A model generated the notes under the pieces. It made no database searches and had not been told where the DNA came from. It saw only the letters and a program-made list of their open reading frames with translations. The position numbers and the translations under genes were made by a program. From Branchiostoma floridae (taxonomy: Eukaryota; Chordata; Leptocardii; Amphioxiformes; Branchiostomatidae): 64,000 nucleotides of DNA. The DNA lies in NCBI RefSeq assembly GCF_000003815.2, contig NC_049991.1, positions 453,039 through 517,038 on the forward strand, written 5' to 3'. Shown in pieces: positions 3,101 to 47,196 of the stretch. Positions within the stretch are counted from its first letter, which is position 1, and every line of letters begins with the position of its first letter.

Positions 3101-6100
3101 AGCGCCCCTCATTTATGCCGAAAATATTCACAATAAAGGAAGTGTCTACACGTATAGGGAACACATGGGTAGGGTCTGCATGGGTTTAGTGGATGTCATA
3201 TTGTTTTACAAACACACGTTGCATAATTCGCCACAAGTGGAATTCTATAAAAGGTCAGCTGATCATGTATTCATTGATACATTATCTATTGGGAAATAAC
3301 ACTCTCTTCTGCAGTGAAATGCCCCTTTAAGCAGAAGTGCTGTCAAAATCTGTATTTTGAATCAACACAAGAAATATGTCATGACATGTACAAGTACTAG
3401 TGTGGATTTGCAGGGACAATAGCAGCACTACCTGTGCCATCAAGATACTGGACACATTATTATATTAAATGACAGCACAATACAAGTTTCCAACCACCTT
3501 GTACCTGGTGCTCATGTCACGCTTGTGTATAGTGAGCTACATGTAAGCTCACGGGTACTAAGTTATCCTTATGAGAATGACCAGACAACTAGTAAAAAAA
3601 ACTGGAGTCCAATTTTTTTGTTAGAAAGAAGTTGAATTGTTTCTATTATGTTTTTGTACCAACACAGATGAACTTTTATGATAGCAGCTATTACCATTTA
3701 TAGGTGGCTTTCAAGACATATGCATGCAAGAAACGTCTTTCACAAAAGAAAACAGTACTAGTATGCAGAAATAACAAACATTTGTGTTGCTGTATACTTT
3801 CTGCCATGGAACAACTGTACTGTCAGAAACACTATTGTATACATCCTGCCATGAGACCAATGTAATGACAAAAACACATACCTGGTAATAGATGACGTAA
3901 TACTCCACATCTCCACCTGTCGAGGGAGTCTCCCACTCCACTGTGATGGAGGTGGGGCCACTTGGGGTCAAACGGACACTGCCGGGGGCACCAGGGGTTG
4001 CAGGAGCTGGGGACATGGAGGGAAGAATTCACTTTGCTAGACTATCACAATCTAAAATAGTTTAAGATAAGGTTGAGTGGCATCATGTGGCACAATCGGT
4101 ATGGTGTCTGGCCCAAACCCCTGAGATTCTGGGATCAAAATTGCTGATGTGCCCCGATGTTGTGCCCGGTGGAAAGGCACTTTGCAAGGCTTCCCTCATC
4201 ACTTCACTCAGATATAAACGAGTTCTCAGCTTGGTTAGGGCCATCCCTTGGATAAGATGCTAAATGGAGGTCATGTGTTTGGGAGCACGCATGCTAAAGA
4301 ACCCGCCACACTAATAAAAAAAAGTAGGTGTCCTTCCTGGTGTGCGTTGAAGCTACAGAAACAACATAAAGACGGATATTCAAATTTCATCAGCCTCACC
4401 TTCTTGTGTGCTGACAGAAAGAGCAGGGCTTCTCTCTCCCATTCCTTCAGTAGAGAAGGCCACAATCCAGATGGTGTACTGGGTGTCAGGCAGCAGGTCC
4501 CTGATGGTGTAGGGAATGTCACTGGGACTCACTTGTACTCTCATGGTAGGTTCATTCTCAGCCTGGAACAGGACATGGAACATGGGAAGTCACAAATAGA
4601 AAATGGAGAAAATCAGTGTCTTGTCTAAGCAGAAGTGCTGTCAAAATCTGCATTTTAAATCAGCACAAGAAATATGTCATGACAAGTACTAGTGTGGATT
4701 TGCAGGGACAATAGCAGCACTACCTGTGCCATCAAGATACTGGACACATTATTATATTAAATGACAGCACAATACAAGTTTCCAACCACCTTGTACCTGG
4801 TGCTCATGTCACGCTTGTGTATAGTGAGCTACATGTAAGCTCACGGGTACTAAGTTATCCTTATGAGAATGACCAGACAACTAGTAAAAAAAACTGGAGT
4901 CCAACTTTTTTGTTAGAAGGAAGTTGAATTGTTTCTATTATGTTTTGTACCAACACAGATGAACTTTCATGATAGCAGCTATTACCATTTGATAGGTGGC
5001 TTTCAGGAGATATGCATGTAAGTTGAAGAAACGTTTTTCACAAAAGAAAACAGTACTAGTATGCAGAAATCAGAAACATTTATGTTGCTGTATACTTTCT
5101 GCCACGGAACAACTGTACTGTCAGAAACACTATTGTATACATCCTGCCATGAGACCAATGTAATGACAAAAACACATACCTGGTAATAGATGACGTAATA
5201 CTCCACATCTCCACCTGTCGAGGGAGTCTCCCACTCCACTGTGATGGAGGTGGGGCCACTTGGGGTCAAACGGACACTGCCGGGGGCACCAGGGGTTGAA
5301 GGAGCTGGGGACACGGAGGGAAGAATTCACTTTGCTTAAATCTCACAGTCATGTAACAACTAGCAAAAACAGTTTCTGTTTGAAGTAGATAATAACCAAA
5401 TATGTATCAGCACAAATTTCATTGTCTGGGATCAAAATTGCTGATGTGCCCCGATGTTGTGCCCGGTGGAAAGGCACTTTACAAGGCTTCCCTCATCACT
5501 TCACTCAGATATAAACGAGTTCTCAGCTTGGTTAGGGCCATCCCTTGGATAAGATGCTAAATGGAGGTCATGTGTTTGGGAGCACGCACGTTAAAGAACC
5601 CGCCACACTAATAAAAAAAAGTAGGTGTCCTTCCTGGTGTGCGTTGAAGCTACAGAAACAACATAAAGACGGATATTCAAATTTCATCAGCCTCACCTTC
5701 TTGTGTGCTGACAGAAAGAGCAGGGCTTCTCTCTCCCATTCCTTCAGTAGAGAAGGCCACAATCCAGATGGTGTACTGGGTGTCAGGCAGCAGGTCCCTG
5801 ATGGTGTAGGGAATGTCACTGGGACTCACTTGTACTCTCATGGTAGGTTCATTCTCAGCCTGGAACAGGACATGGAACATGGGAAGTCACAAATAGAAAA
5901 TGGAGAAAATCAGTGTCTTGTCTAAGCAGAAGTGCTGTCAAAATCTGCATTTTAAATCAGCACAAGAAATATGTCATGACAAGTACTAGTGTGGATTTGC
6001 AGGGACAATAGCAGCACTACCTGTGCCATCAAGATACTGGACACATTATTATATTAAATGACAGCACAATACAAGTTTCCAACCACCTTGTACCTGGTGC

Positions 6101-9100
6101 TCATGTCACGCTTGTGTATAGTGAGCTACATGTAAGCTCACGGGTACTAAGTTATCCTTATGAGAATGACCAGACAACTAGTAAAAAAAACTGGAGTCCA
6201 ACTTTTTTGTTAGAAGGAAGTTGAATTGTTTCTATTATGTTTTGTACCAACACAGATGAACTTTCATGATAGCAGCTATTACCATTTGATAGGTGGCTTT
6301 CAGGAGATATGCATGTAAGTTGAAGAAACGTTTTTCACAAAAGAAATCAGTACTAGTATGCAGAAATCACAAACATTTATGTTGCTGTATACTTTCTGCC
6401 ATGGAACAACTGTACTGTCAGAAACACTATTGTATACATCCTGCCATGAGACCAATGTAATGACAAAAACACATACCTGGTAATAGATGACGTAATACTC
6501 CACATCTCCACCTGTCGAGGGAGTCTCCCACTCCACTGTGATGGAGGTGGGGCCACTTGGGGTCAAACGGACACTGCCGGGGGCACCAGGGGTTGCAGGA
6601 GCTGGGGACATGGAGGGAAGAATTCACTTTGCTAGACTATCACAATCTAAAATAGTTTAAGATAAGGTTGAGTGGCATCATGTGGCACAATCGGTATGGT
6701 GTCTGGCCCAAACCCCTGAGATTCTGGGATCAAAATTGCTGATGTGCCCCGATGTTGTGCCCGGTGGAAAGGCACTTTGCAAGGCTTCCCTCATCACTTC
6801 ACTCAGATATAAACGAGTTCTCAGCTTGGTTAGGGCCATCCCTTGGATAAGATGCTAAATGGAGGTCATGTGTTTGGGAGCACGCATGCTAAAGAACCCG
6901 CCACACTAATAAAAAAAAGTAGGTGTCCTTCCTGGTGTGCGTTGAAGCTACAGAAACAACATAAAGACGGATATTCAAATTTCATCAGCCTCACCTTCTT
7001 GTGTGCTGACAGAAAGAGCAGGGCTTCTCTCTCCCATTCCTTCAGTAGAGAAGGCCACAATCCAGATGGTGTACTGGGTGTCAGGCAGCAGGTCCCTGAT
7101 GGTGTAGGGAATGTCACTGGGACTCACTTGTACTCTCATGGTAGGTTCATTCTCAGCCTGGAACAGGACATGGAACATGGGAAGTCACAAATAGAAAATG
7201 GAGAAAATCAGTGTCTTGTCTAAGCAGAAGTGCTGTCAAAATCTGCATTTTAAATCAGCACAAGAAATATGTCATGACAAGTACTAGTGTGGATTTGCAG
7301 GGACAATAGCAGCACTACCTGTGCCATCAAGATACTGGACACATTATTATATTAAATGACAGCACAATACAAGTTTCCAACCACCTTGTACCTGGTGCTC
7401 ATGTCACGCTTGTGTATAGTGAGCTACATGTAAGCTCACGGGTACTAAGTTATCCTTATGAGAATGACCAGACAACTAGTAAAAAAAACTGGAGTCCAAC
7501 TTTTTTGTTAGAAGGAAGTTGAATTGTTTCTATTATGTTTTGTACCAACACAGATGAACTTTCATGATAGCAGCTATTACCATTTGATAGGTGGCTTTCA
7601 GGAGATATGCATGTAAGTTGAAGAAACGTTTTTCACAAAAGAAATCAGTACTAGTATGCAGAAATCAGAAACATTTATGTTGCTGTATACTTTCTGCCAC
7701 GGAACAACTGTACTGTCAGAAACACTATTGTATACATCCTGCCATGAGACCAATGTAATGACAAAAACACATACCTGGTAATAGATGACGTAATACTCCA
7801 CATCTCCACCTGTTGAGGGAGTCTCCCACTCCACTGTGATGGAGGTGGGGCCACTTGGGGTCAAACGGACACTGCCGGGGGCACCAGGGGTTGCAGGAGC
7901 TGGGGACACGGAGGGAAGAATTCACTTTGCTTAAATCTCACATACATGTAATAATTATAACAACCAGCAAAAACATTCCTTTTTACAAATAGATAATATC
8001 CAAATATGTATCAGCACAAATTTCATTGGCATAAACTTGCAATACAGAGAACCTAGTTTATATTAAATTGAGCATATGAAGATGATCCCTACCTTCTTCT
8101 TGTGTGCTGACAGTAAGAGCAGGGCTTCTCTCTCCCATTCCTTCAGTAGAGAAGGCCACAATCCAGATGGTGTACTGGGTGTCAGGCAGCAGGTCCCTGA
8201 TGGTGTAGGGAATGTCACTGGGACTCACTTGTACTCTCATGGTAGGTTCATTCTCAGCCTGGAACAGGACATGGAACATGGGAAGTCACAAATAGAAAAT
8301 AGAGAAAACCAGTGTCTTGCTTAAAGGGGCATTCCACTCCAGAAGGGGGTGGTGTTTTTCAATAGATCATGTGTCAATGAATACATAATCAGCCAAATTT
8401 TGTGGAATTCACCTGAATGAATTGCGCAATGTGTGTTTTGTAAAACAATATGACACTCACTAAACCCATACAGACCCTACCCATGCATTCCCTAAACGCA
8501 TAGATACTTTCTGCCATGAAACAACTGTACTGTAAAAAACTCTATTGTATACATCCTGCCATGAGACCTCTGTTATGACATAAACACATACCTGGTAATA
8601 GATGACGTAATACTCCACATCTCCACCTGTTGAGGGAGTCTCCCACTCCACTGTGATGGAGGTGGGGCCACTTGGGGTCAAACGGACACTGCCGGGGGCA
8701 CCAGGGGTTGCAGGAGCTGGGGACACGGAGGGAAGAATTCACTTTGCTATACTTTTACAATCTATGTAACACTTGGTAAGTGGAGCTGCCAAAATATAAA
8801 CAAAGCTTTATAGGTCCATTTTACCAGGGAAATTCCCAAGCTCTTTTGGACACAGACAATGAACATCTTAATGTCTTGTCACAAGGACTGCAACCCTTTC
8901 TAGTAGAGTCAGGCTAGCAACACAGCCAGGACTATAACTCATGGTTTCTTGGTCCAGATAAATCTAGAGACATACCTTGATCCTCTGTCATCAAATTGAC
9001 CATCTGGCTCCTCTGACCCAAGCCCTCAGACGAGAAGGCAATGACCCACACAGTGTAGCGTGTGTTTGGGTTCAACCCCGTGATGGTGTAGCTGGGCATG

Positions 9101-12100: not shown

Positions 12101-15100
12101 CTTGGTGCTGAGGGCCAAAGCATATGGATTGTTACATCATGTACTTAGAAGAACTGATTATCTTGAAGCAAATGTTGAGTGAGAAACAATTGTTAAAAAC
12201 ATGTGAAAAAGGAAGTCAAGGCAAATCAAATAGTTTGTCATGCATCCACAAATCCCAAGACACTCTTCATTACAGTCTACAGCTGTTGCAGTAGTAACCA
12301 CACTGTGGGTACTATAAGTACAAGCAAAAGGACATACCCTCTTCCAGGGTGGTAACGGCGATGATGGGGCTCCTTTCTCCCATTCCTACATTGGACAGCC
12401 CGACCACCCAAATACTGTACTCTGTGTCAGGCAGCAGGTCCATCAGGGTGTAGGACACAGTTCCGGGGCCCACCTCCACCATGGACGTGGTCTGGTCGGG
12501 GGACTTCTAGCAAAGCAAAAGAAAACTTGTTTCTACTTGGATACATGCTGGGTGTGAAGATCATACAAAAGTAGCTGCATAATAAACCATTTGTTATGAA
12601 CAGCATTACAAAGTTGAGAATAAGTGCATGCACGTTATTTAGAAATTGAAATGGTCGCCATCACTACACACCAGCCACTCAAAAACTGTGTCCCATATGT
12701 CATGAAAATATCGAAGATAAATTTCATTTGTTATGACTTGTCCTATTCACAGTAAAGAGAGAGAATTGATGTTCAGAATATTAGAACTTAAACAAACTTC
12801 TCCCTATCTGTAAACAGACCATCTGTTGTATCCACATACATGTTACATTTGTATGCACATGACAGTACATGTGTAGGTCAGTTCAATTATACATTATCCC
12901 AAATGAGACCAGATCAATCATAAATGACTGTGGTGTTAATAGTGTTATTAATAACATTTTGTTGTTATGTATGTAGCCTCATAGTACTGTTGTTTATAAG
13001 TTCTTGTCATACATTGTACCATGTTGTATGTAGCCTCATAGTACTGTTGTTTATAAGTTCTTGTCATACATCGTACCATGTTGTATGTAACCTCATTGTA
13101 CTGTTGTTTATATTATTAAGTTCTTACCATACAGTGTACCATGTTGTATGTAACCTCATAGTACTGTTGTTTATAAGTTCTTACCATACAGTGTACCATG
13201 TTGTATGTAACCTCATAGTACTGTTGTTTATAAGTTCTTGCCATCCATTGTATCATGTTGTCGAGCACTTAAGTTCATTCATTCATTCATGTAGCATTAT
13301 ATCCATAAGCTTTTCATTATTTGTTATCTGCTAACCTCATAGTAGATCCTATACTGGTCCAGCGGTCCACCAAACGTTGGTTGTTGCCACTCCACCAGAA
13401 TACTTCTGGCATCCAGTGCTGTTGCCAGGACATTCATTGGGCGTCCAGGGAGCCTGGGGCCTGGAGACAAGGAAGTTAGCACAGACAGGCACAATGTGTA
13501 GAGCAGTGACTAATATATAGTTGATTGTATCATAATTTCCATATACATCTTGCTGTTTGTGACAATACACAACTAACCTTCTGAAGGAGTCTGTAGAGTC
13601 TTCATACTGCTCCTCAGGCCCATCCCTGCGTCCGAGTGAGCCACCACCCAGATAGAGTACCTGGTTTCAGGGCGCAGGTCGGACAGGATCAGGGAGTTCA
13701 CACTTGGACCCACTTCTCTCAACGTCGTCCCTCCTTCCCTGGACTGCAATAAAGGAAGGTAATGAATCTTGTGAGGCTTATCAATGACAAGCAGTTACCT
13801 TTGAAAATAAAGAAGTGCTCATCAAAATACCAGTGCTATGTAAAAAAACAGTACATAGAGAACAATATCCATGATTATCCCTGTACTCAAACAATAGCCT
13901 CTGTACTTAATATCAGCCTCTATATACAACCATGAATCTAAAAACCACTTCCTGGTTCTGTTTCCCTCGTAGTCTTCTTTCAGGTTTATGTTATATTACA
14001 GACCGAGAGCTGTCCTGGATGAAGCCTAATACTATATGATGAGATGTGCTGTGTGCATGGAGACAGAAGTAAGCTACCTGATGATAAACCATGTAACCCT
14101 GCACAACCCCTCCAAGAGATGGTGCCTCCCACTCCACCAGTATAGTTGTAGGACTCAAGGCTGTAGCTTGGACATTCTGTGGCAATCCTGGTAAGGATGG
14201 AGCTGGAACAAGACAGGGATATCAGAACAATATCATAATTCCATGACAGAATGATTGAATCTGACTAATATCATCCATTCTTCATGGCATTAACTCATGG
14301 CATAAACTACTAGTATGACACTGCATGCATACGTAAGATTATCAACTACATAATACATGACAACGTTACATGTGCTCAGATAAGTTGACTTTGAAACGCC
14401 ATGTTTGGTGATTTCCTTACCTGGTGCATCAGTAATGGCTGTAACAACAGGACTCCTGTACCCAAGGCCTGCAGCATTGACAGCCTGGACCCAGAAGGTA
14501 TACTCTGTGCCTGATTCTAAACCTCCAACTGACTGAGACAGAGTCTGGGGACCAACATCAATGGATGCCACCTGGGGATCGTTAATTGCCTGAAACAAAC
14601 CGAAGGATCAATGTTAAAATATGAAGCTTTCATTGTTTCCAATCAAAAAGATACCGGTATATTACATTCAGCTGCTGGTGTATTCATGGCTTAAACATCA
14701 TCATCATCATTCACTATGTTCTGCATCTACAGTAAACAATAGTGAGCGAATGGTTACATACAGCCATAGAAGTCTACATGGCACAGTATCTTGTAGTGAT
14801 ACTAAGAAATGGATACAAGTAGTATCTGGACCTGGTAATATATCCTGTAGCCATCCACACGGCCGGCTGAAGTGGGCTGTCCCCACTCCACAAGCACAGT
14901 CGCCATGTCTGTAGGCCTGGCCTGGATCCTGGCAGGAGATCCCGGGAGGGCAGGTACTGTAGTAGAGAATTTACACAGAACATTAGTACCTCACACCAAT
15001 AGATACTTGAACCAGCCCCAAATATTGAACAGAAATATGCAGTATGTAGTACAAGGTAGTTGTAGCACAAGATGAAACACACAGCACCAAGCAGAAGTAC

Positions 15101-18100
15101 AGGTTAAAGGACTGAGTCGTCATCACCACTATTACCATTTGGCTCATAGATGTCAATATTGAAGTCCACTGAAACGGCACCACTAGTTCCATCCCTGCTA
15201 ACATCAGTGCCCTCTGGCACGTTTCCTTCTCCTGCATGTCCATCCTCATGGGCAGCCTGGTGCCCGGCCTGAGTTGTACCAGCATCAGAGCTGGCACTGC
15301 CACTCAACGGTGGAACTTCCTGTCCCAAGACTGGCCGACCCTCACGGTCCAGCAGGTCCCCATCTGCACCTACAAAGGCAATGCTGTTGTCTGCACCATG
15401 GCTGTGGTTCCTGGCAGCCTCTTCAGGATCAGATTGACCTGCAGTCTCAGCAACACCAGCATCTCTTCCTCCCACAGCATTGCCACTGCTGGGAACACCG
15501 CCTCGACCTGAAAAGCCCTCTTCATTGTGATTGGCTGCAGCTGACCCGCCCAGAGATCCTTCATGTCTTGTGCGTCCACCAAAACCACTGCTGGCTGGCG
15601 AGGATGGTATTGCAGATGGACTCGATACTGATTGATTTCGATTTGCTCCATCTGCAACAGAGCCTGAACTGCTGGGGTTGGCAGGAAGCCCCTCTGTGCC
15701 AGACACATTTTTGCTAGCTTGTCCACCATGGTGCCCACCATGTCTGTTGCTGTGGTGCCCATTTGCACCATGCCTGTCCCCATGGTGCCCACCATGCCTG
15801 TCCCCATGGTGCCCACCATGCCTGTCCCCATGGTGCAGCCCAAACTGACTTGATTCATCTGGTTTAGTATCACTTCCTGATGTAGAATTTTCCCATGCAT
15901 CAGTATTACTATGGTCAACATCTAGAAAACCATCCACAGTGACGGTTTTACCTTCAGTTATCACATTTGAATCAGTTTCGTTGCTGGTGTCACTCTGTTG
16001 GGAAGTTTGGCTGACTCTGACTCCAATGGTTGAACCAGGTGAAATGTGACCTGTACCAGGAACAAACCTGTCTCCAGAATGTCCATTCCCAACAGGTATA
16101 ACATTAGGAATTGCAGGCATGGTGCTGTAATGATGGTCAGCTGGAGAACTACCATTGTTACCATTGCTGTCTGTTTCATCTACCTCACCACTACCTACAG
16201 TCACATCCGCATCAATGTCATTACCAACAGCCCCCGTGACAGATGGGCTGTTTTGGCTACTGTCGGTACGGGTCCCTGTATCCCCTCTAGATACAGCTGG
16301 TCTGGATGGCTTCACAATGCCAGCAACACTTCCATCTATGGCATTACCAGTTGGAGAACCATCTCTTCCTGTTGCTGGTTTTTGGTGCTCCTGCTGGTTG
16401 GCTGCACCACCTGTCTGTGATGACTCCATTGTTTGGTCTTGTTCCCCATGTCCACCACTGTGCTCTTTGCTAACAGGGCTTCCTTCTGATGTTACATCTG
16501 CATCTTCACCACCAGTCACTGCAACAGTTCCAAAATTCCCTGGTACTCCAGACCCGATGACATTCCCATTGGCTGAGCTACTGTCTGCTCCTACTGTGGA
16601 TGTACTGTTGCTCCAGCCTTCTACAGGAACGCTGTCTTCTTTGCTTTCATCAGATGAAAATGGAGCAATTGAGTTGCCAGAGGTAGCACTTCCATAGTAC
16701 TCATCGATGGAAACATCACCTCTGTTTCCATGTCTAGCTGGCTGTATGTCAGCTCCAGAATTCCCAACAGCAGAATTGGCCACTTGATCTGTCCTTCCAC
16801 TGTCAACCTTCCCTGCTGTGGACACATTGTGATGACTGGAGTTTCTGTCAGAGCTGTCATCTAGAGATGGTAACCCAGGCGACACTGTCCCTCCCAGTTG
16901 GCCCTCACCACCTTCAATAGTGAACCATGATGCATCTAAGCTGCTGACATCTGCTCCAGTAGTAGACGCATCACTTTCACTTGCCTGCCCAGTACTGGCA
17001 CTTCCACTGGTGTTGTTACTGGTAAATCCAAACTCTGGTGACCAACCTGCATCTTTGCCTGCTGTAGAGTTTTCATGAGTCAACCCTCCAACTTGTCCAC
17101 TTAATATGGTGCTTTCATCCTGTGCATTGTCACCACGTGCTCCATCAAAGGATGGAAGAACTCTGTTATGTCCTCCTGAACTACTGTTGTCTCTCTTAGC
17201 ACCAGCAGGGCTTATACTACCAGCCCTTGTGCTGGTGTCCACAGCACCAGCCATGGATCCACCATGCTCTCCATCAGCACCTGTCATAGATCCACCATGC
17301 TCTCCATCAGCACCAGCCATAGATCCACCATGCTCTCCATCAGCACCTGTCATAGATCCACCATGCTCTCCATCAGCACCTGTCATAGATCCACCATGCT
17401 CTCCATCAGCACCAGCCATGGATCCATCATCATCTCCATCAGCACCAGCCATGGATCCACCATGCTCTCCATCAGCACCAGCCATGGATCCACCATGCTC
17501 TCCATCAGCACCAGCCATGGATCCATCATCACCTCCATCAGCACCAGCCATGGATCCATCATCACCTCCATCAGCACCAGTCATGGATCCATCATCATCT
17601 CCATCAGCACTAGCCATGGATCCACCATGCTCTCCATCAGCACCAGCCATGGGTCCACCATGCTCTCCATCAGCACCAGCCATGGGTCCACCATGCTCTC
17701 CATCAGCACCAGCCATGGATCCACCATTCTCACCATCAGCACCAGCCATGGATCCATCATTGTTACTTTTTGTGCCATTAGAAAAGCTATTGTTGATTCC
17801 TGCCTCAGCACCACTGTTCTCCCCGTTGGCCCACTGGCCTGCAGTACTGTCATCTGGATCATCCCCACCAGCATGATTCTGTCCAACTTGTGAGTCTGCA
17901 TTGTTCCCATCTGCTCCATTCCAAAGGTTGGCTGTGCTACTTTTATTACCACTACCATCTGGGACATTGGTACCAGTCCTACCACCTGCCACCACTGAAG
18001 GCACACCACTGTTATCACCATCAAAGTAAGCATCAACTACTGCAGCTTCAGAAGTTGGTACATGACTACCAGTGCCATTTTGTCCATCAGTAGAATCCAC

Positions 18101-20122
18101 GTTGTTCCCATCTGCTCCGGCCCTCAGGCCGTCTGTGTTTCCATCACCGCCTGTCACACCGGTACCTGTACCACTACCAGCCACACCAGCAGATGTACCG
18201 TTATCACCATCAAGGAAAGCGTCAACTACAGGAGCTACAGCTATTTGTTTGGTCCCACCACCACCCAAGGCTGCCAGGCTGTCACCTGTGTCTGACCCAG
18301 CCCCTGGCGAGGCCTGATTGCCAGGCTGTACAGTACTGGTTTCCTCCTCTGTGTCCTCATCTTTGTCTGCATACAGTTCCTTTATCTTATCGGCATCAAC
18401 ATCTAGGACGTAATCACAATCGCAGGGACCTAGGAGACCAGGACGAAGGAAACAGGAACTTTGTTTGGATGTATCTTTGCAAACTTGTTATCTAAATCCT
18501 ATAGTCATGCAACAAGTTGGACAATATTGACCAATCAGAATAAGCCTCAAACAAGCACATTGGTATATCAAAAATCAAGCACAACAGAGTATATACAGCT
18601 ACAATATGTACAACATACAATATCAAGATGAAGAGTAAATCCCCTTCTACATTAGTAAATAAGGCCCTTAATCCATACATGTAAATCCAATCATTGACAA
18701 TTTTCTGCAATGTATGAATTATCTTTCCTGTAGTATATTCCATAGCTACCAAGTCAAAAAGATCCAAAGAAGAATAGACCCTATGGCTCAAACAAAGGTC
18801 CTTTCTTGGAGGTTAGACTGCCATTGTAACTTCTTTAAAAAAACTTAAAAACATAAAGAGCCTATGTCGGTGCCTGTAGTGTCATAACTAGATAATGAGT
18901 TCATTAAGTGTAGGAAGACTGAGCCAAGCACATCATTTCAGAGATGAATAACTACTATGAAGGTCCAGTATGCTCTAATATCATGTTATTTTGTACCAAG
19001 CTGGAAGTAAATTTGTATTGTAATGTTGCTAGTCACTTGTACTCAAGTCTATTAGTTTTTAAACTTTAGTAACATTCCTGGAGTCTATTTCTTAACTTCA
19101 AATTTGCAAATTAGTCAATATCTTGCAAGCTTGCCAATAAACACACACAATGAAAAACAAACACAATGACCTTCCAAGAATACATTCATCTTATGCTCAA
19201 TCATTGCTTAGACAAACTCTAACATGCCAATCAGTTCTTTGTAGATATTTCAGTTATGATGCAAGTATGATAGAGCTGAAATGCTGCTGCTCATTGTTTG
19301 TGTTTAGAGGACATGCGTATGACAATGGACACAGATTATTGCAAAATGGCACTTCTCAAATAGCAGCATTAGCTATATCTAGACAGGTTGGGTTCGACTT
19401 TTTTTTTGGAAGAAGAGGAAGACAAAGAGTCCCACTTTTTCTATACTTTGTGGGGTTTGTGATTTTAAAAGAAAAGTGGATTTTCTGTTTCTGAATGTAG
19501 GAAAGTTGAGATATGTCATGGTGACTTCTTTAGATAATGCGGTTCTTTTGTCATGGTTGAATGAACATTTAGAAATAAAATGAATAATAACTCAAATCTC
19601 ACCATCCTCTGGAGTCCTTGCATGGACTTTAGGACTACGAAGTCCCATCCCATCAGGAGAGAAGGCCACCACCCACACAGTGTAGTCAGTTTCAGGTGTC
19701 AGGGCCATGATGTCGTAGGAACGCTCTTCTCGGTCCACTTCTATGGTGGAAATAGCTGGGTCTCCTTCAGCCTGCAGAGATTGTACATTTTAAACAATTA
19801 TGCCAAAAAGCTTTCATCAGTGACACTGGAGAAATCTTGTTGGAGAGAGTTTTTATATTCTAGTTGTGAATTGATATATAATGCAAAGCTATCTGCCACA
19901 AAAAATCTGCCCCCCAAAAAACATAGCATGTCCAGGTCGAAAGATACAAAAAATGGAAGTTCTGCTGCAGTACCAAGGTCACATTCTAGGGGGCCCAAAA
20001 TTGGTAATTGACCTTCGTCTTCCCAACACTTACCTACATACTAAATATCATTGTAATCTATCAAAAGGTTCTTGAGTTGTATTGACCACAAATATCCGGA
20101 AACAGAAACACAGACACACAGA

Positions 20123-20157
<35 letters not shown>

Positions 20158-23100
20158 CAATATTTTCATGGAGATAAACACAGTCTTTATGTACAGTACA
20201 ACTTTCACAGAGATCATACCTGGTAGCGGATCCTGTAGCCGCTGACTCTGTCCTCCAGAGCAGGAGTCTGCCACTCCACCCTGATGGAAACTGCACTTGT
20301 GGCATAGGCTGTGACATCCTCCGGCATCCCAGGCACCTCGGGGGGATAGTCAACCCCACCTGAGGAAGAACAACTCATTTCTCAGAGATCCCCAGTGAAG
20401 GGTGACACTTTCAAGACAATAAATAGTTTGGGCCTTTATCTTGGAATAACATGACAAAGCATCAAAGATAGAATACAGATTGAAGTACTGTTAAACTAAA
20501 TGTATCTAAGTTTGCACAGAGGTAACTTTGCGGAAGGGAGAAAATGGATACCGTTAGTTTGCCGTGATTTTCAGGAATACCCTGTGTTGTAATTTATCTA
20601 TATCATGCCAACCCAAGCAAACTCAAGTTTATCACAAAAAAGAGCAAAAAACGTGACATGCACATCGCATTGACAACTTTATTTGTCAATTCGAACAAAA
20701 GAACCAGGCAGATGAAGAGCTCTTTGAATTTTTGACAGTGGCGCATGCAACTTCCAATCACTCGATTCAACATATGAACCCCCGGGCCATACTGTAAAAT
20801 AGGAACCAGTCGGAACACCTATATCAAACATTAATACAGCCCGGATATGATATAAACACATGTACAATATTTTCTGGTGATGGCGATATCCTACTTTAAC
20901 CCCAAACAAATGTGTATAGAGTTTCTCCCATTACCATCAGTTGGTTCAGTGCGTACTGTGACCAGCGGGCTCCTGAGTCCCATCCCCAGGCTGGACAGAG
21001 CCACCACCCAGATGGTGTACTCCATGTCAGGCTGCAGTCCTGGGATGATGTAGCTCAGGGTGGAGGGGTTCACCACATCTTCTGTAGCAGATACTTGGTT
21101 CTCAGGCTACAAACAAACACAGTAAGTTCAGTATGATGTGAATTATGAAATGTTATACATTTGTATGTAATGTAGAAACTGTCTAGATTGGACCTAGAAA
21201 ATTGCATTCTTTCCCCAATCAAGCTGAACAGGATAGCCTAAGCATCTAACATCAGCAATCAGTACACCACCAACTCTCCCTATACAAACATGCATGGTGT
21301 TTCTTCAATAAAGTTTGAAGGTTAACGTATTGCTTATCACACACACTCAGTGATATTGCTTATACGCATTGTATCATATAATCCACCTCCACGCTAGAAT
21401 CTCACCTGGTAGTATATCCTGTATCCAGTAACTTTGCCCCCAGCCCGAGGCCTCTGCCACTGCACATGGATGGATGTTTGCCCAACATCGACAACTCTCA
21501 CATCATCAGGGACTCCTGGCAGTTGAGGTGCTATTGATAGGGACATTGTTCTATTGTCAACATATTATTTCAACAGACACCTGAATACACTGCACTACAG
21601 TACAGGAAACATTAAAGAAGTCATGTGTCATATAACCTGATTACATTTACTAAAAGCTTATCATACCAGTAAAATTTATCAGAAATAGATGAGAAAGATT
21701 AACACAATGCTCACTTTCTTGCAGGGTGCGTACAGTGGTGCGAGCACTCCTCTTCCCCATCCCTGCTGGTGAGTAGGCAGTAACCCAGATGTTATAGTCA
21801 GTGTTAGGTTGGAGGTCCTCCAAGATCAAGATCCGTCGCTCTGCTCCGCTTTCCTCGAATGATATCATGGCATCCCCAACAACCTGTGGAAATACATTGT
21901 ACAATTGTGATCCTGTGTGTCTACAAAATAGTGCTTCATCTGTAAAATCACAGATAAAACGAACCTTATATCAGTCTGTTCCCTGTCCTACCTGGTAGTA
22001 AACCCTGTATCCTGGCCCAGTCTGTTCCCTCTCCTACCTGGTAGTAAACCCCGTATCCTGGCCCAGTCTGTTCCCTGTCCTACCTGGCAGTAAACCCCGT
22101 ATCCTGGCCCAGTCTGTTCCCTGTCCTACCTGGTAGTAAACCCTGTATCCTGGCCCAGTCTGTTCCCTCTCCTACCTGGTAGTAAACCCTGTATCCTGGC
22201 CCAGTCTGTTCCCTGTCCTACCTGGTAGTAAACCCTGTATCCTGGCCCAGTCTGTTCCCTGTCCTACCTGGTAGTAAACCCTGTATCCTGGCCCAGTCTG
22301 TTCCCTGTCCTACCTGGTAGTAAACCCTGTATCCTGGCCCAGTCTGTTCTCTGTCCTACCTGGTAGTAAACCCTGTATCCTGGCCCAGTCTGTTCTCTGT
22401 CCTACCTGGTAGTAAACCCTGTATCCTGGCCCAGTCTGTTCCCTGTCCTACCTGGTAGTAAACCCTGTATCCTGGCCCAGTCTGTTCTCTGTCCTACCTG
22501 GTAGTAAACCCTGTATCCTGGCCCAGTCTGTTCTCTGTCCTACCTGGTAGTAAACCCTGTATCCTGGCCCAGTCTGTTCCCTGTCCTAACTGGTAGTAAA
22601 CCCTGTATCCTGGCCCAGTCTGTTCCCTGTCCTAACTGGTAGTAAACCCTGTATCCTGGCCCAGTCTGTTCCCTGTCCTAACTGGTAGTAAACCCCGTAT
22701 CCTGGCCCAGTCTGTTCCCTGTCCTACCTGGTAGTAAACCCTGTATCCTGGCCCAGTCTGTTCCCTGTCCTACCTGGTAGTAAACCCTGTATCCTGGCCC
22801 AGTCTGTTCTCTGTCCTACCTGGTAGTAAACCCTGTATCCTGGCCCAGTCTGTTCTCTGTCCTACCTGGTAGTAAACCCTGTATCCTGGCCTAGTCTGTT
22901 CTCTGTCCTACCTGGTAGTAAACCCTGTATCCTGGCCCAGTCTGTTCCCTGTCCTACCTGGTAGTAAACCCTGTATCCTGGCCCAGTCTGTTCCCTGTCC
23001 TACCTGGCAGTAAACCCTGTATCCTGGCCCAGTCTGTTCCCTGTCCTACCTGGTAGTAAACCCTGTATCCTGGCCCAGTCTGTTCTCTGTCCTACCTGGT

Positions 23101-26100
23101 AGTAAACCCTGTATCCTGGCCCAGTCTGTTCTCTGTCCTAACTGGTAGTAAACCCTGTATCCTGGCCCAGTCTGTTCCCTGTCCTACCTGGTAGTAAACC
23201 CTGTAGCCTGAGGGTGCAGCATTTGTTGCAGGTTCCTGCCATTGCACCTGGATGCTGGATGAGGATAGGGATGTCCCCTGGATGTCCTGAGGGATCCCAG
23301 GAACACCTGCTACTGGTCTGATCTCGGGCAGGATCTGCGCACTGTCTGGGACTCGAGCTGAACAAACAGACAAGCTCATTCAGACCACAAGACCCTCAAA
23401 ATCCTCTGAGACGATTTGCATGCAATTGATTTTGTCTTCAAGTGATAACTGTTTTGTAACTTTCCATATGTTTTTATCATATTCTAGTGTAAGTTAGATA
23501 TAGGTTATGCAAATATGGCAAACATGTAAATTAATGCTGTAATCACTTGATTTCTTTTGATCTATCCCTGTGTTACAGTACAGATAGTTGTGTTACAGTA
23601 CAGATAGTTGTGTTACAGTACAGATAGCTGTGTTACAGTACAGATAGTTGTGTTACAGTACAGATAGTTGTGTTACAGTGCAGATAGCTGTGTTACAGTA
23701 TACAGATAGCTGTGTTACAGTACAGATAGTTGTGTTACAGTACAGATAGTTGTGTTACAGTACAGATAGTTGTGTTACAGTACAGATAGTTGTGTTACAG
23801 TACAGATAGTTGTGTTACAGTACAGATAGTTGTGTTACAGTACAGATAGTTGTGTTACAGTACAGATAGTTGTGTTACAGTACAGATAGTTGTGTTACAG
23901 TACAGATAGTTGTGTTACAGTACAGATAGTTGTGTTACAGTACAGATAGTTGTGTTACAGTACAGATAGTTGTGTTACAGTACAGATAGTTGTGTTACAG
24001 TACAGATAGTTGCATCTCACCACCAGTCCTGATGCGGACCCTGGGGCTGTCCTCACTGTCTCCTTGGTTGGAGAAGGCAACAATCCATATGATATACTCA
24101 ATCCCAGGCTCCAGACCCGACACTGCCTGACTCTGTTCCAGAGGCCCTGTCTCCACTTGGGACGTCATCTGATCTCCACCCACAGCCTACACAGCAGCCA
24201 ACAACAGCTGTCAGACTGGCTTTTCACACATGCAACAACAACATGCTACTCTATGGATGTTTTTCAGGTACAGGTACAGTCCAGGTTTGGAGGATAAGGC
24301 CCATGTCTGGACCTGAAGTTGGACCTAATTGTTTGTGAAAACTTGTGAATGGTCGACACTCAAAGCAATGGTCCATTTCGCTAGTTGAGGAATCTGTTTG
24401 GTGGAGTATCCTTTAGCCACATAATCAATGCTAACTGCCTCTGTTAACTTAGACTAGGTTTGACTGTAGAAACTTGTAAAAAATCAACTGTCCTCTACTT
24501 CACTCCTGTTAACTTCTTGGACCGATAAGCCCCAAAACATGGGAATACCCGTCACTGTAGTGCCAGAATAATCTGTTCATTTTCTAATTAATTGGTCCAC
24601 AATCTGGTCCACTGATTGTTTTCAGGTCCTTTTTTTTCAGACCGGTCCAACAATAAAAAACGGTAGGGGTACCCACCCCTACCAAAGACTGATATTACCT
24701 GGTAGTAGATCCTGTATCCCCTGACAGGTGCACCCGTTTCAGGAGCCTGCCACGACACCCACAGGGTTGTATCATCTATAGCTGTCACATTGATGCGAGG
24801 CACGAAGCCTGGCACAGCAGCAGCTGTAATACACAGGTTATCAACACTCATTCAAGACATTGTCATCAACATTACAGGCAATATTGCAGTCACTCGTCGG
24901 TTACTTTCTAATACATATAATGTGATCAAGCTCCTTGATGTGATGATGATGGATAAATAAGACAACATCAATGCTAAGTCAGGTTAGTCTTCAAAACATG
25001 ACAGCATCACTTCAACATCCATCCATAAGAGAAAGAATGAACTGTGAGGGTACAGTGCCCATCCAGAAATATGATGCATGCATGACTGTTGACGTACTTG
25101 TGCGGACTATAAACCGCTGAGTCTCTGACCCATCTCCTGCTTCATTGAAGGCCAGAAGCCACACAGTGTACTCAGTATTGGGCAACAGTTGTCCAATGAT
25201 CCTGGTCCTTTCACTTGCATCTGCCTCCAAGGATGATGATGGCTGTCCTGGTGCCTGTAGAAATTAGTCATTAGTTTTCCATGAAGAAGGCATTAATTTA
25301 GTCTCAATAAAAACTTGATCAGCTGCAAATAAAATGTCTAACAAAATGTAACTACATCTTGGTTGCCTAATCCAATCAATTAATGGGCAGTATAAACTCG
25401 TCGTGTGTAAGCACATCTACCGATGATGATGATGATGATGAATCCAATCAATTACAACTGATAAAACTTCTTATACAATGTAAAGACAATATTTGTCCTA
25501 TTTCATTTTTTGTGTACAGATTTTGAAAACCACAGACTGAGTGAAGTTATGCTGTAATCATTTCTTCCTTTGTCAGTCCTCAGTAGAATGCTGGATGGTT
25601 TGTAGCCACTAGACCTTGTAGACTGAGAGTTAGATTGGGCTACATTTATGGTGAGGTCAAAGTCAAACATCCACTTGCTGCATATCCTATTACACTTCAA
25701 TACTGTGACCTGCCCATACCTGTGTATAAGTTACATACCTGGTAGTATATCCTGTAGCCTGAAACTGTCCCACCACCCCCAGGAGGGACCCACTGGACCC
25801 TGATCATGGTGGGGCCAATTGGAGTCACCTCCAGTCCCCGCGGGGCATCTGGTAAAACTGGACAAAAATTCTCCTTTGTTACAACATGGACTCAAACAGA
25901 ACTCAAGTCAAAGCAAAGAGGCTAAAGAGAGACAAAGGTTCAATCTTTCTCACTGAATTGAATAGGCAAAAGCGCATGTCCATCCTGGTGAAGAGACGTA
26001 GCAAAATGCGAGGTGAACCATTTTAGAACTGAACCTTCCTTCAACAGTTGTACCAAATATCATGAAGATCCATCCAAAGCAGAGTTATGCTCTTGACCTA

Positions 26101-32100: not shown

Positions 32101-35100
32101 CCATCTGAGAACCCTTAAATCATACCAGCAGTGTGAAAAATCAAGTCAATGGGTACTAAGTTGAACTTGTGATGACACAAATATGATGCTGCCATATCAT
32201 GGTACTCTATCTGGTTTGCGCTGCTTAACTTGCCCTGACCACTACTGAAGATCTGATCCTGTTCCTTATTGGTTGAATGGAGATTCAATATCCTTCATGG
32301 GGCAGCATAATGTCCAGTGTGCCTTCCACCTAACTGTAACTGGGGTCTGCTGTTTCACTTGTCCTTTGTTGGATTTTTATGGTGATATTTTGGCTCAGAT
32401 GGAAAGCGTGACTATATCATGTCAATAAAATTTCAACATTGAATAATTTACATAGTTTTTTAGTTCTTCAGAAGATAAAAATGCAATAATCTTATTTATT
32501 TATTTATTTATTTATTTGGATTCTCCACACTGGAGACACTTTATTTACATGTACTGGCCACTACATTGTAACTTCTTACCGCACACAAGTGCTCTGTTCT
32601 TCAGACCCAGACCTCAGTTCACCGAAGCAGCAGTGGTTCCTCTCCGGGCTGTATGGGGTGACAGTGTTACAACACCGCCATGGCTCATCAACAGTTGGTC
32701 TGATAAACGGGGTGGAGCCACAGACTTGACAGGAATGTTGGTTATCGGGACCACTGAATATCTGTCCGTTGCAGCATGTCTGTGATTGTGGGTTGTAGGG
32801 TGTCATCTCCGACGTCTTTGGATGAGAACAGCACCAGTACTCAGGCTCATCTCGCCGACGGCTGAAAACCTGGAAGCGAACAGAAAAATTATTACTCAGG
32901 CAATGACCTAATGAAATGCTTCTAGCCCCTCTATTCCAATCCTACCTGGAAATAGTTAGAATGTTTTTTGTGTCTTGATGGATAGGCAGTCAGAAGATGA
33001 CAGCTCAACACAGTTTCTCCTCCCAATCTAACCCTGACGCCTTTGGGCTTAACAGCCTGGGAGTTGTCAGCTTCCGGACAAAAGTGTTCCAAATTATTCT
33101 CTCTAGAGCCATTCCCTGACTTATGGACGTTTGGTTCTTCCTTGCCTGTTATTTCCCTGATCTGGTTCAGCCATCGTTTTCATGGTATGTCTGCTGGCCT
33201 ATTCTTTTTTGGTGTACAGTTTTTTTTTAAACTCAACACAGTACCTGAGAATACCAGCCTCCTACTAGTAGTGTAGTAGGTAAGCTTGTCATCAATGTAT
33301 TGTCATAAAAATCCAACATTAAAGGCAGCTTAAGTAATGCCCTTTTGCACAGCCAACAAGCTTCAGCTGTATTGCTAACTGCCAGCAGGATCACAAATTT
33401 AAAATCAAGAAAAATTGAGACTCAAGGCTCGTTCTCATTTAAATGTCGAAATGCTGTCGCCTGACTTTACGGCTTGATATGGAGAAAATTGTAGACAACA
33501 TCACTGATTCCTTCATTTTTCCATAACCCCTGTAATGTTTTACAAAAGATGCACAACAACATTCGTATTGGTTGATGGCTTAGACGGTTATCATAGCCAT
33601 GGGTCGGATTTCACACCCTAAAAAATGGCTGTCGCCTGAGAAGAAACAAAGAATTCAAATAGTAGTCAAAAATGTAACAATTCAGTTCCCAGAATAATTG
33701 TTTGGCAGGTGAAACCAGCTACCAAGGCCCTCTGACCGATCACTTCAGATCGCTACTGTCACTGATCTTGGAGGCTGTGTAAGGTGGTTTATGCCTGTCG
33801 CCAGATTTTGTAACAAACGTTACCACCACGAGTACGACGGTTGCCACGGTTTTATTATCGACGTATAAGACTAGAAATGACCATTTTTGTGACGCTGTAC
33901 AGTTTTTCTGGCTTCCTAAAGAAACAAGAAAGGGTTGTTGACTGTTATTTGTATCCCACCTTGCTTAACAAAATGTTGTACAGAAATGACTGGAACTTTT
34001 CAAATGTTCCTTGGGACATCCACTTATACCTAAATGATGTAGTCAATAAGGTAAGTCCTTTAGAAGAAAAACAGGGTAAAGTTTACTGTTGTAACAAACG
34101 TTACCGGTAACGTTTGTTAACCGCCCTGTAATGTATTACCAATGGGACCGAAAATAATAAGTTGCCATTTTTTGGCCATGGTTAAAAGAGGAATTTTCCT
34201 AAACAACCAGGTAGTTTTCACTGAAAATAAAGCCGATTTATTTTTCGTCCAAAAAAATGCCATTTTCGACATTTCAATGAGAACGAGTGTCAAGCATATT
34301 TTTTGCCTTCAAATCTACCCCATCAAATTTGACGACCTGCAAACACCAACCGATTCTAAAAATATGATGGGCAAGAAAACACAAGGCGTATTATACTGCC
34401 AAAACTTGGCTGTGTGACAGCAAGATAAAGCTATATAATGGCAAATACAACATGTAGATTGTAACGGTTACCTCATTGCCACAGCGTTGGCAGGTGAATT
34501 GTTCCTCGGAGCCAGAGTGGAGTCCATCAAAACAGCAGTGCTGCTCTGCAGGGTTGTAAGGCCGACCCTTACAGCACCTCCAGGACCCATCTGTCGCTGG
34601 TCTGCTGAAATAGGTGTTACCACACCTACACCATGGACAAAAGGGAACAAAACCTGATGTCAATACCACCAAACAAAACATTTTGCAACAAGAAGTGGAG
34701 ATACTTCATCTTAGATTCAGGCTTTCATACAAGCTTGCATATGGTAAAATTATATAATAATTTGGGTGAAGGAGATTTTATTTGAATGAAGAGCATATAT
34801 AGATTAACATTACGCAAGCCACAATGGAAGGTCAACATGGTATATAAAACAATACAATGTGTATTACAAGTTGAGCGATGGAGTGCCGTGAGTTCGAGCG
34901 TGTGAAACAACGGGTCATGTTAGGGTGCCCTGTTATATGTCTTGTGCTATCTATATCATATGTAATGATAGATTGATTAGGACTTAATTGATATAATCTG
35001 TAATGTTACCTGTTATATTTTATCTGACCCTTCTTACCTGTTCCCTCATGACCTCAATCTCTGGTTTGCTAAGTCCTGGCAAGGCCTTTAGCAGGCCCAG

Positions 35101-38100
35101 AAACAGAGTGAACGGTGGGGTAGATACAAATCGCCTTATCTGCAGTTCCGTATGTCGAAAAGTTTGAAATTTGGTAAGAACTTTGCCTAGGTACTACTTC
35201 TTCCAACTATGTACAAGATATTGGAAGTAGACACATAGTATTTCCATAATTTTCAAATATAAAATCTATGTCATTTTATAATAATTGGCCCAGCCAACTT
35301 CATGCCGTTGGCCTGGAGCTGTGATATTTTTACAGGATGTTGCTACAGTCATATACTATTGGAATCGGTTACCGGGAAATAAGAACATACCTTAGAATTT
35401 TATAAATACAAAAAATTATTAATTCTTATGATTTTTTGAGGGGTGACCATAACTTTATCAGCCTATACCTCCGCATTGTAAGATGAAATCAATTTTCCAA
35501 CAAGGGATTCAAGCAGACTAAGTACTTGAGCATTGTTTACACTTAATCGTAACTTTGTAAGCCGTAGCTACGAACTTGGCTAGGGATTTAAAGTTTAAAA
35601 CTCCCAATTGTGCAGATTTTGGTCACATTGCTAATCAATCAATCTGACAGCTGTTTATTTTTCAATGGATTTGTTGTTTTAACAGCTCCTCACGAAACTG
35701 ATTACCTACAATTATCTTTAATTATGCATAGAGGACAGACAATAACACGCAGGGAGCCCATGGCATTCATTCAAGTCCTGATTGACATGTAGTCGGGCCA
35801 CAGTCATTAAGATTTTGTAAAGAATTAACTCATTGCTAGAGTAAACTTTGTGGGAAGGAAACGGTTCAGAGTGGAAATTCTACAAGAAAGAATATTCAGG
35901 GCATGGAAAACTTGCTTAGAGCCGTCAATTGACTATGATATAGTTCAGCACAGGTCCTGCAATGACCTGTCACAAAACATCCACAATTTCTCATGCAATA
36001 CACATTTGCTAAAATAGACAGACACAACCGTTCAGAATAATGAATCTTTATCACTACAACCCAAAACATGCAGGTAATGAGGTAAATCTGAGTCTAAATA
36101 GAAGATGCATCGAGTATAGGTTACGATAGGTTGCACAGAAAATACAATCTCCAGGCGCATGTACGGTCTAGATTGTTTTACACGCGGTATGCGGCATTTG
36201 TTTTTGTTTGTATTTCATAGCTATAGACCATCGTACTTCTCAAAAAGAATACGGGTGCTTCCTGTACGCCCAAGTTAGCTGAAATAACCTCCTGGTTACG
36301 CCATATGACGGTTTACCGTGTATACTATTAGTATACGGTATTTCAGCTAACTTGGGCGTACGGGAAGGACACGTATTCTTTTTGAGAAGTATGGTGGGTT
36401 ATTTACGTGTACCTGAGGCGTGGCTGTCTTCAAAAACGGGATCTCAGTTTCCGAACACATTATGCGACTTCCACATGTTTAGATACACAAACTTATAAGG
36501 TGTTTCTACCAAACAAGGAGGTTAAAACCAACTATGTCACCATGCATATATACCTGTCCTCGTGACAAAGGATCTTGAACAAACCTTCTGTATGACAGTA
36601 TATGTTACCCAGCTGATCAGCTAACATGCGCTAAACTAAAATGAGACTAAAAAGGCTTTTCAATAACACCGTTTGTGGGAAACTTGTCACAACAAGGCTC
36701 AAGGCAGAGTCTGTTGTTCTTTGTTATTTATGCATGGCATGAGTTGTGTACAATAGTGCAAACTACCAGTGTTTTCAAACCAGATTCTAGTGGATTAGGG
36801 GCAAAAATAGACCTAAAGTTACGTCAGAAATCAGTGAAATCGGCTTGGAAGTTGGATCCAGAGGCCAAACTCGCAAGCTCCTCGGCTCCTGGGCCAACAT
36901 GCCCACGTGGAAATTCTTAGGGTCTACTCAGTCGGTCTGCGGCAAAATATCCATATCATCACAAAAGTTTTTCCCAGACCAAGGAGGTTAAAAAAATCAC
37001 CTCCTTGCCCAGACTAACTACGCCGGCTAGCTGTAGAGACAATAATTTTTTCCATGAGAGTTTGGCCACAAAAGTGAATGAGTTAAGTGAATGAGCAATC
37101 CTTATAACTAGAAATTTGTTGACGGTGTAATGTATGGCAACAATAACAAAGCAATTAACACCAATCACCGTAATACTTGTCTTGGCCTCAGGCGGGGGAA
37201 AATATCTCCCAGCGACCTGACTTTCCTGACCAATCATTCTTCTTTTTGCCAAATCATCCTTAGGAAGGCCTGTTCGGAGGCTATTAACGGGATCTAGGTT
37301 AAATTGAATGAATTTGTTAAAAAAAGTTAATGTTTGGATGGGTTATTAAATTGGCACTACTTGAAAAGAATAAGACCAGTTTTACAATTGTTGTTGTATT
37401 GCTTTTTCAGACAAGTGATCTCAAACATGGAGTGAAAATATATTACATGTATTTTCAGATAAGTGAAGTTTTTTCAGGAAAATCGAAACATGTAACTATG
37501 CATTGATTTGGTACTAGTAACTCCGTGTTTGAAGCTCTTTGTGAACTCATAGGCTCCTAGCAGGGTGTGTAATTAGAGCATATAGAAATGTAAACTAGAG
37601 GAGGAGAAGTGGGAGGGGAAACCAGACTAATTAACACCCAATTACAGCCTCTCCAGTCGCACCCTGGCTCATTTAAATGTCATTTTAATATTATAATGAG
37701 TTCCTGGCAGGGACAGCTTTGCCAGGACTTAGCATAGGAGAGATGAAAAGTGGCCTGCAGACTGAGTTGAACATTCTCATGAAGAAACAAAGGTTCAAAC
37801 AAATACATTCAGTGTAACGTTATGGGGCCTGTTTCCGTGACCGTACCTCTGACACACGTAGTCCCGCTGTGGTCCATACTTGGGCTGGTTAAACCCTCCA
37901 CAACAGTGGTGAGTTGATGGGTCGTAGGAAATCTCATTGTTGACTCCACAGCAGCGGAGCGGTGCCAGGTCTCTGCGGCGGCTCATCATGTTGTCTCCGC
38001 ATGATTGACAGATGTAGGCACTCTCCGGACCATTATTCAGCCTGCCTGCACAGCAGTGCTCCCGTAATGTGTTGTACGGCTGGTCACCGCAGCACATGTA

Positions 38101-41100
38101 GGACTTGGACTCATCCCTGTAGGATAGAGCAGGATGTATAGCATGGCTGTATTTCTCACACAGATATGCACCATGTCCGGGACGAGAGATACATATAGGA
38201 CAAAATGCCATGATAGAATATTCTCATTGATAATGCAAATGTCCCCCCATTTTGCATAATTAATCTTTCATTTTGTATATTTTGGTCTAAGCTACCTACA
38301 TACCAAAAATTATGATAATTCGACAGAATATAGTATCATTAGTATGCCAAATAATAGATCCTTCATTTTTGTTCACATCTTCTTTGACCTTGGAGTGTTC
38401 CATGACAGTAGTATACGTTTTCCGATATAACACGTTATGTTTTGAGATGTCTTGATATATGTTCAATAAAGACAGACACACAAATGCTGCATCAAGACAT
38501 GACCTTCACGACATATTTCATGGAGGTAACTAAAAGTATGTCTTCAATGCCCCAAGCAGTACAATTTCCCTAATCTTTGAGCATATTGCTGCAAAATATG
38601 TGTAAAACAAGCCAGACCTAACATTACATCTGCTTGCCAACTACCCAGCCCCCTCACCAACCTTGGAATGGACATGACACTATCGGCCGAGCAACGGAAA
38701 CAGCTGGTAGTGTCCTCTGGCCCATCCTTGACCTGTCCGAAGCAGCAGTGACTGGTCTCTGGATTATAGGGCTGGTCATTGTTCCGGCCGCAGCAGCGCC
38801 AGGGCCGGCTGCTCTTCCGAATGGCAAACATGGTTGTCTCACAAATCTTACAAACATGATCAGCTTCTGCACCCTCGTACACTCCATCCGCACAGCAGAT
38901 TTGTCGCGATGGTTCGTAAGATAGAGGGCCTCGTGTCGAGTAGCAGGTGTTTCTGTCTGATGCAGACCCCTGCACTGCACCTAGGGAAAACACATCGTGT
39001 CAGACAAATCTGGGATGATGTACATACTACTTACTAGTAATGAGACTTGCCTTATTAATTAGGAAAGTTTCCACTTGGCAATCTTGCTTAATGTGCTTTT
39101 TTCCCCATTTCTGGTGGAAATGACATTGCCAAACCTTAGTTGCACATGCAACATTAAACTCAAAATAAATCTAGGCAAGTGACTATCTCCAAACAAGTGA
39201 GTCAACTAGCTGACTTGCTGTGTTTCAATTTAACCTTGCATTAAAGAGCACACATGTATATACCAAGACACAAGCAGGGACTGTATGGCCTTCAAGACAC
39301 TGTAAATTAAAACTTTCCAAGTTATCATGTAATGAAAAGGCACAAAGCATGTCACTGTTTGTCACAGTATCTACATGAGATAAGTAAGATAAATATCATT
39401 TTTCCTTTTGGGGACCTTTTCTTCTGACTGGTCAACGGCACCTGGCTTGATGATAATATCCATTATGTCATACCTGTGACGCGAAAACGTTGCGATACGG
39501 GTGTTCCGGACCGGATGATAACTTTCCGTACGGCCCGGGCTTATCACATGGGCTCCATTCGAATAAATCGAACTGTTTCGAGTGGGCCGAGTACGGCGCC
39601 ATCGAAAGTTCGAATACCTGATTCGGACGTTGGAACATAACTGTTGTTTTTCGAGGGCAACAAATTTGTTCAACTTCTGGCGCATTTCGCATCATAACAG
39701 TGGTTTTCTCAGGTGGGTATGACATAAATTAAATACAACACGGTGTATTCCGCATCACCCTCGGTCCCAGCCCTCCCGCGGGTCGGATCACCCTCCGGCC
39801 TTCGGGCGATCCTTCCCGCGGTCGGGCTGGCACCTCGGGTGATACGGAATACACCGTGTTGTTTTCTATATTTATTGCTATCTTGAGTTAACATTATTCT
39901 CTCCAGAATCTTTTCACAAAAATGCCCCTGCAATTTCAAACTTAGTTGCCAGGAGGCACAAACTCATGTCAATTCTTCCCGAGTGCAAGAGCTATCTAAC
40001 ACCCCAATTTTCTTTTTTAGCTATCTTGTTGACATACAGACAGACACACACACAAATGCTAGTGAAAATATGTTAACCTTCATGAATATTGATGGTTAAC
40101 AAAACACCTAACGCTAGTTCACCTTTATCCGCATGGCAACCTAACGTTATATCCATTGTTTTTAAAAGCGAGGTATTCACGGATATCTAGTTGACGGACG
40201 GTGGTTCCAAATTGCAATATTTTCATAGCATTCCAGGCTGAAACAGCAGTCTGTCGACTTGATATCCCTAAATACTCCGATTTTATATGCAACGGTTAAG
40301 GTAACCCCACGGATAAAGGTGAACTAGCTTTATGGGCTAATCTCCAAGCAGATCTTGCGGTAGTTAAAGTCAGTAACTTTAATATAAGCTGGGGAAGGAG
40401 TTTAGTCGGTAGAGGAGTTTTAGTCTTCGCGGTAGAATAATTTATAAAACACCTCTGCTGGCTGCTATTAAAACTCGTTCCCCAGCTTATGTTACTGTCT
40501 TTAAACTACCCCAAGATCTGCTTGGAAATTACCTACGGGCCGGGCTGTGACCTTAGTGCCGAAACGTGAGATTGCCTGCAGTGACCCTTTCTGACAGACA
40601 GCATTCTTTGATAACGTTATATGAAGATTTTACATTAGGATTTTCATGGATGATATCAGGTTCATATCAAGGTCATAAACCGTTCTTATTTCTTGATGTG
40701 GCTTCATTCGCAACACAATAGTTTCTACTCTCCAAGCAGAGGTTAGGCTCCATCTGTTTTTTTAACGTTTTTAGTGGTTTTTATCAGGCTTTCTATTTTT
40801 TCATTTTTCTTGAAGTACGCCAGCCAAAGTTAGGTTTTGACACAGCAAGATAAAATACAAAATAGAAAGCCCGATAAAAAGGACTAAAAAACACGTTAAA
40901 AAACAGCCGGAGCCTAACCTCTGCTTGGAGAGTAGAAACTATTGTGTTAACGGGGGGGATCCAATAAAAGCAAAGACACGGCATAGCTGTGCTTATTTAG
41001 GAAGTTTTATAGATAGCCTTCTCATCTGTGGTGGTATCTTTTCACATATCGTATTTGACGATGAATTATTTAATAGTTTCCCGGGCCATGTTCTCGATAT

Positions 41101-47096: not shown

Positions 47097-47196
47097 NNNN
47101 NNNNNNNNNNNNNNNNNNNNNNNNNNNNNNNNNNNNNNNNNNNNNNNNNNNNNNNNNNNNNNNNNNNNNNNNNNNNNNNNNNNNNNNNNNNNNNNN
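47097..47196. other. Assembly gap (100 N)
   Basis: A run of 100 N. Just after it the sequence GATCTGCTTGGAGATTA (about 47224-47240) is the right end of a TAATCTCC-family MITE, so the gap probably hides that element's palindrome. Confidence 0.95.

Follow-up and report, generated by a model that had tools for sequence, protein, structure and literature searches.

Analysis of a 64,000-nucleotide window of the Branchiostoma floridae genome (assembly GCF_000003815.2, contig NC_049991.1, positions 453,039 to 517,038; coordinates below count from the window's first base) identifies, in a predicted minus-strand gene encoding fibronectin type III (FN3) domains, a 46-bp minisatellite in which an exon end, a splice donor and the first 20 nt of the following intron recur 27 times (Table 1). 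We consider it probable (about 80%) that the array is an intronic minisatellite of the kind called a mirage in amphioxus, that its first donor is the one used, and that stray products of later donors meet early stops.

Table 1. Features of the array and its host exons (window coordinates; a slash marks a splice site).
Feature	Position	Strand	Basis
46-bp minisatellite, 27 copies of exon end, splice donor and 20 nt of intron	21972..23210	(-)	TRF, copy-by-copy listing, shuffle control
Exon 20 (predicted), 170 nt, first half of FN3 domain	23188..23357	(-)	frame, acceptor TTGTTCAG/, Pfam fn3
Exon 21, 159-nt tested part, second half of the same FN3 domain, VVGDAMISFEE...TVRT	21725..21883	(-)	frame
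Predicted intron, 1304 nt; 108 nt from last copy's donor	21884..23187	(-)	donor/acceptor prediction
Predicted true donor CAG/GTAGGA, copy 1	23182..23190	(-)	score 8.73, U1 pairing -10.7, frame test
Copy 2, donor +1 G>T, shifted weak GT CCA/GTTAGG	23136..23145	(-)	copy listing, scoring, frame test
Copies 12, 13 and 14, donor +1 G>T, donor lost (+1 at 22681, 22635, 22589)	22589..22681	(-)	copy listing, scoring

The units lie head to tail at an exact spacing of 46 bases, with donor position +1 at 23187, 23141 and so on down to 21991 (copies are numbered from the exon side, copy 1 being at the exon junction). Tandem Repeats Finder (TRF) reports a period of 46, 26.9 copies, 97% matches and 0% indels, and a 23-base donor-spanning probe allowed up to three mismatches finds 27 sites, compared with a mean of 0.00 in 100 shuffles; the row of 27 exon ends with donors described in a first-pass annotation of this DNA is thus borne out. 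That annotation was also right that the unit combines exon end, donor and intron, that the array begins at the predicted splice junction, and that the 46-base length is not divisible by three. The exon bases of copy 1 end at 23188, and the TRF tract extends to 23210. The exon part of the unit comprises 26 bases, the last 18 of which match the true exon exactly; four positions differ among the first eight. Ten copies match the 46-bp consensus at every base.

The gene model is a prediction from frame and motifs, and the exon numbers are labels taken over from the first-pass annotation. Exon 20 terminates in phase 0 with PSGYRVYYQ, and exon 21 starts at 21883 with VVGDAMISFEE; 159 nt of the latter were used in the frame tests, its 3' donor not being fixed. 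The joined exons form one FN3 domain (Pfam fn3, E 3.8e-16), which the junction splits. This predicted junction (23187/23188), spanned by copy 1 and repeated in 26 further copies, is founded on frame and domain evidence. Other FN3 exons on the minus strand have the same mid-domain end with a GT, with the exception of 28709, which continues without an intron. Among the best 60 of 112 sequence matches in solved structures, the top ones are receptor tyrosine phosphatases, which reflects FN3 likeness only.

CAG/GTAGGA is kept in 23 of the 27 copies; in the other four (copies 2, 12, 13 and 14) it reads CAG/TTAGGA, the donor +1 G having become T and a weaker GT having arisen one base upstream. With a human-type position table and the U1 5' end, which rank sites and are uncalibrated for this species, intact donors score 8.73; in the altered copies the original site has dropped to -1.24, and the GT one base upstream has 1.87. 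The 9-base donor of 22 spare copies is identical to that of copy 1, which gives 23 donor-competent copies after one exon by sequence and score, the multiplicity of donors that characterizes the human IFI6 minisatellite. The first-pass annotation had counted 26 spare working donors: the repetition is real and the number is too high, 22 of the 26 being intact by sequence. It had also read a change from GTAGGA to GTTAGG in four copies; the string is present, and signifies loss of the donor G with a weaker GT (1.87 versus 8.73) one base upstream. Other predicted donors of the gene bracket the array donor in score: of 26 others located by eye and script, the 24 that were scored (all but 31240 and one near 20947) range from 0.78 to 10.69, nine of them exceeding 8.73 (four of these nine come from copies of a single duplicated exon), and the pairing of the copy 1 donor with the U1 5' end (-10.7 kcal/mol) ranks joint second with one of the 24. 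The lowest score, 0.78, belongs to the mid-domain donor of an FN3 exon at 14831, which reads CAG/GTCCAG; the real junction there may lie elsewhere, or the donor may be non-standard.

Among the strong donors, only that of copy 1 keeps exon 21 open. For 26 of the 27 unit positions, a stop is met before the end of the tested stretch of exon 21: use of the donors of copies 2 and 3 shifts the frame and stops follow in exon 21, and every donor from copy 4 on includes the TAG that arises within the GTAG of copy 3 and requires an exon of at least 308 nt. The proposal that frame would be kept if three units were added at once fails on the same codon, because the three-unit product reads TAG in copy 3, which excludes this length variant as an open product of the present sequence. 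Among the 57 intron GTs examined (a scan of all but the last ~20 bases of the intron), the frame is open only with the true donor and with the shifted GT of mutated copy 2; the latter would insert 15 residues in frame, VGQGTDWARIQGLLP. The frame analysis is consistent with regular splicing despite the array, and suggests that copy 1 alone could function normally.

The probable history is that the array arose by tandem duplication of a 46-bp segment across the junction, with slippage or unequal exchange multiplying the copies. The array makes up ~92% of the 1304-nt intron, and the starting intron would have been about 108 nt long. Twenty-six of the 27 copies would then be intronic and functionally dispensable. 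The spliceosome would take the first donor, which is equal in strength to the other intact ones, closes an exon of normal size (170 nt) and yields the only strong open product, whereas use of a later copy would give an mRNA with an early stop that nonsense-mediated decay would probably remove. Exon definition presumably causes this choice, because folding gives no reason for donor 1 to be more open: among the predicted accessibilities of the 27 donors (0.000-0.015), that of donor 1 is 0.002 and is not singled out. Weighing against first-donor use, besides this folding result, is the human IFI6 (6-16) minisatellite, which has multiple splice donors, two downstream units of which are used to give three mRNA species (PMC4526556); by analogy, exclusive use of donor 1 may not be guaranteed in amphioxus either.

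The two minisatellites are alike in offering several splice donors after an exon, and differ in that downstream units are used in IFI6 and the 46-bp units here close the frame. It is nevertheless conceivable that the array supplies alternative donors that are in use as in IFI6, and thereby yields variants of different length or adjusts expression by way of unproductive splicing; the sharing of copy 1's 9-base donor by 22 spare copies favours this, as does the existence on paper of one open variant, the 15 extra residues gained through mutated copy 2. We regard it as unlikely, given that the frame is closed at 26 of the 27 unit positions, that the sole open alternative has a weak donor and that donors from copy 4 on demand such long exons; the frame and score evidence would still accommodate unproductive splicing, which may act as a control of expression.

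Several features of the spare copies fit the preferred interpretation of the array as a mirage in which the first donor is used. These copies look unconstrained: the donor G is missing from four of the 26, and the two positions that vary in the exon portion of the spare copies both alter codons (AGG>GGG in copies 12, 25 and 26; TAC>TGC in copies 5 and 25). Adjacent units are slightly closer to one another than distant ones (97.9% likeness at lag 1 versus 96.9-97.5% at lags 2-13, counted over copies 2-27, i.e. without copy 1), and this small excess perhaps fits local turnover of units. A scan for similar duplications at 26 donors and 11 acceptors of the gene, covering 1500 nt in one direction from each (nine of the 11 acceptor positions deviated by one base, an offset that the scan tolerates), matched donor 23187 to its 26 array copies and donors 6994 and 5696 each to one copy of a 1.3-kb duplication, and detected no nearby copies within that range at the other 23 donors or the 11 acceptors. 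The array seems to be a chance local event, not a design feature of the gene, because only one of the 26 donors has such nearby copies, the two matches to the 1.3-kb duplication aside.

The amphioxus Adh3 mirage was reportedly described by Canestro et al. 2002, and the human IFI6 minisatellite by Turri et al. 1995. The first-pass annotation, which knew of no named case like this one, is mistaken on this point, amphioxus mirages and the IFI6 minisatellite both being named already (PMC3087553, PMC3902484, PMC4526556). Mirages are tandem repeats across exon-intron boundaries, reported in Adh3, the globins BflGb6 and BflGb9, and TnC (PMC3087553, PMC3902484), and the repeats of PGBD5 have been likened to them (PMC3902484). 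In Adh3, the globins and TnC, regular splicing is said or suggested to be undisturbed, and the spare signals could be cryptic sites (PMC3087553, PMC3902484); it has also been suggested that new introns could originate from mirages (PMC3087553). The array resembles them in having a repeat unit that spans an exon-intron junction; in its unit length, which falls within the 10-72 bp of Adh3 mirage units (PMC3087553); in its location at a 5' splice site, which is possible for such repeats (PGBD5), BflGb9 likewise duplicating an exon's 3' boundary (PMC3087553, PMC3902484); and in keeping AG/GT in many but not all units, here 23 of 27. It differs in its host, an FN3 gene, and in its 27 copies, compared with six and three units of 150-160 bp in two haplotypes of BflGb6 (PMC3087553). 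Length instability between haplotypes is a further mirage feature, and the window represents a single haplotype. The array looks like a new example of this rare and already named kind of repeat. Human segmental duplications contain internal tandem repeats, some of them minisatellites that, as here, can sit at exon-intron boundaries, where they can give rise to novel introns or alternative splicing; unlike the array, these average four 30-bp units (a figure for all variable repeats of that study) and differ in copy number between recent paralogues (PMC2812944). Introns of an amphioxus VCBP gene contain copies of exons, whole or in part, some of which include splice sites (PMC2632668), and the examined passages of PMC2206037 make no mention of repeats at splice junctions.

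Precedents from the same literature raise the question of whether the copy number, or the whole array, was generated during assembly from a shorter genuine array: the draft assembly of one amphioxus globin mirage was wrong, and the PGBD5 repeat number varies between assemblies (PMC3087553, PMC3902484). Distinct variants occur in irregular order across the copies, and the window's two runs of N lie elsewhere (47097-47196 and 59222-59355), observations that do not exclude an error and yet make this account improbable in our judgement.

In all intact copies the donor is preceded by CAG, and if donor 1 were spliced to such a CAG an identical donor would arise again at no cost to the frame. Each TTTACTACCAG/GTAGGA could accordingly be imagined as a combined acceptor and donor that permits stepwise, scarless removal of the intron by recursive splicing. 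Known recursive splice sites are found in very long introns, unlike the intron of only 1.3 kb here, and pyrimidines account for 47% of the 17 bases ahead of the CAG in the two spare copies that were measured (53% in copy 1), compared with 53-82% in 11 other predicted acceptors; we give recursive splicing hardly any credence. Pseudo-exons inside the array were likewise rejected: the CAG before GATACAGG is preceded by a stretch that is purine-rich by eye and is not a credible acceptor.

Taken as a mirage, the array adds to the known amphioxus cases its many copies, its decayed donors and a frame that exposes wrong choices as early stops. Identical serial donors in near-identical surroundings allow the effect of position on donor choice to be separated from that of sequence, and the value of the array is as a clean, many-copy example for experiments on that choice. 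A bolder view, to which we attach little weight, is that it constitutes a natural experiment on how a 5' splice site is chosen, with 23 identical serial donors and each intact copy rebuilding a donor when used as acceptor, in which the shifted donor of copy 2 and its open 15-residue insertion in mid-FN3 would mark an early stage in the conversion of a junk repeat into new exon sequence.

Other repeats are found in and around the same gene. The preceding intron holds a 20-bp minisatellite of 22 copies (23569-24012), ~8 nt past the predicted donor at 24020; it was considered as a second mirage and rejected, since it starts inside the intron and by eye lacks exon sequence. Near-identical FN3 second-half exons recur on the minus strand over ~930-8285, with donors 6994, 5696 and 4399 spaced ~1.3 kb apart and further copies near 946 and 8092, an exon-scale tandem duplication. 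A 57-bp minisatellite of five copies (12968-13261) lies between two FN3 exons of the minus strand. Within a minus-strand open reading frame (ORF; 15107-18487), a 1127-aa open stretch rich in G, S, D and N that has no Pfam match up to E 1, a 33-bp repeat of ~16 copies (17238-17760) runs in frame. Across the whole window, neither Rfam (gathering threshold) nor tRNA scanning gave a hit. Upstream of the FN3 exons, galaxin-like repeat stretches extend over 32579-38999 on the same strand (of three scanned, one was above the Pfam cut-off and two were below), and may belong to one gene with the FN3 exons.
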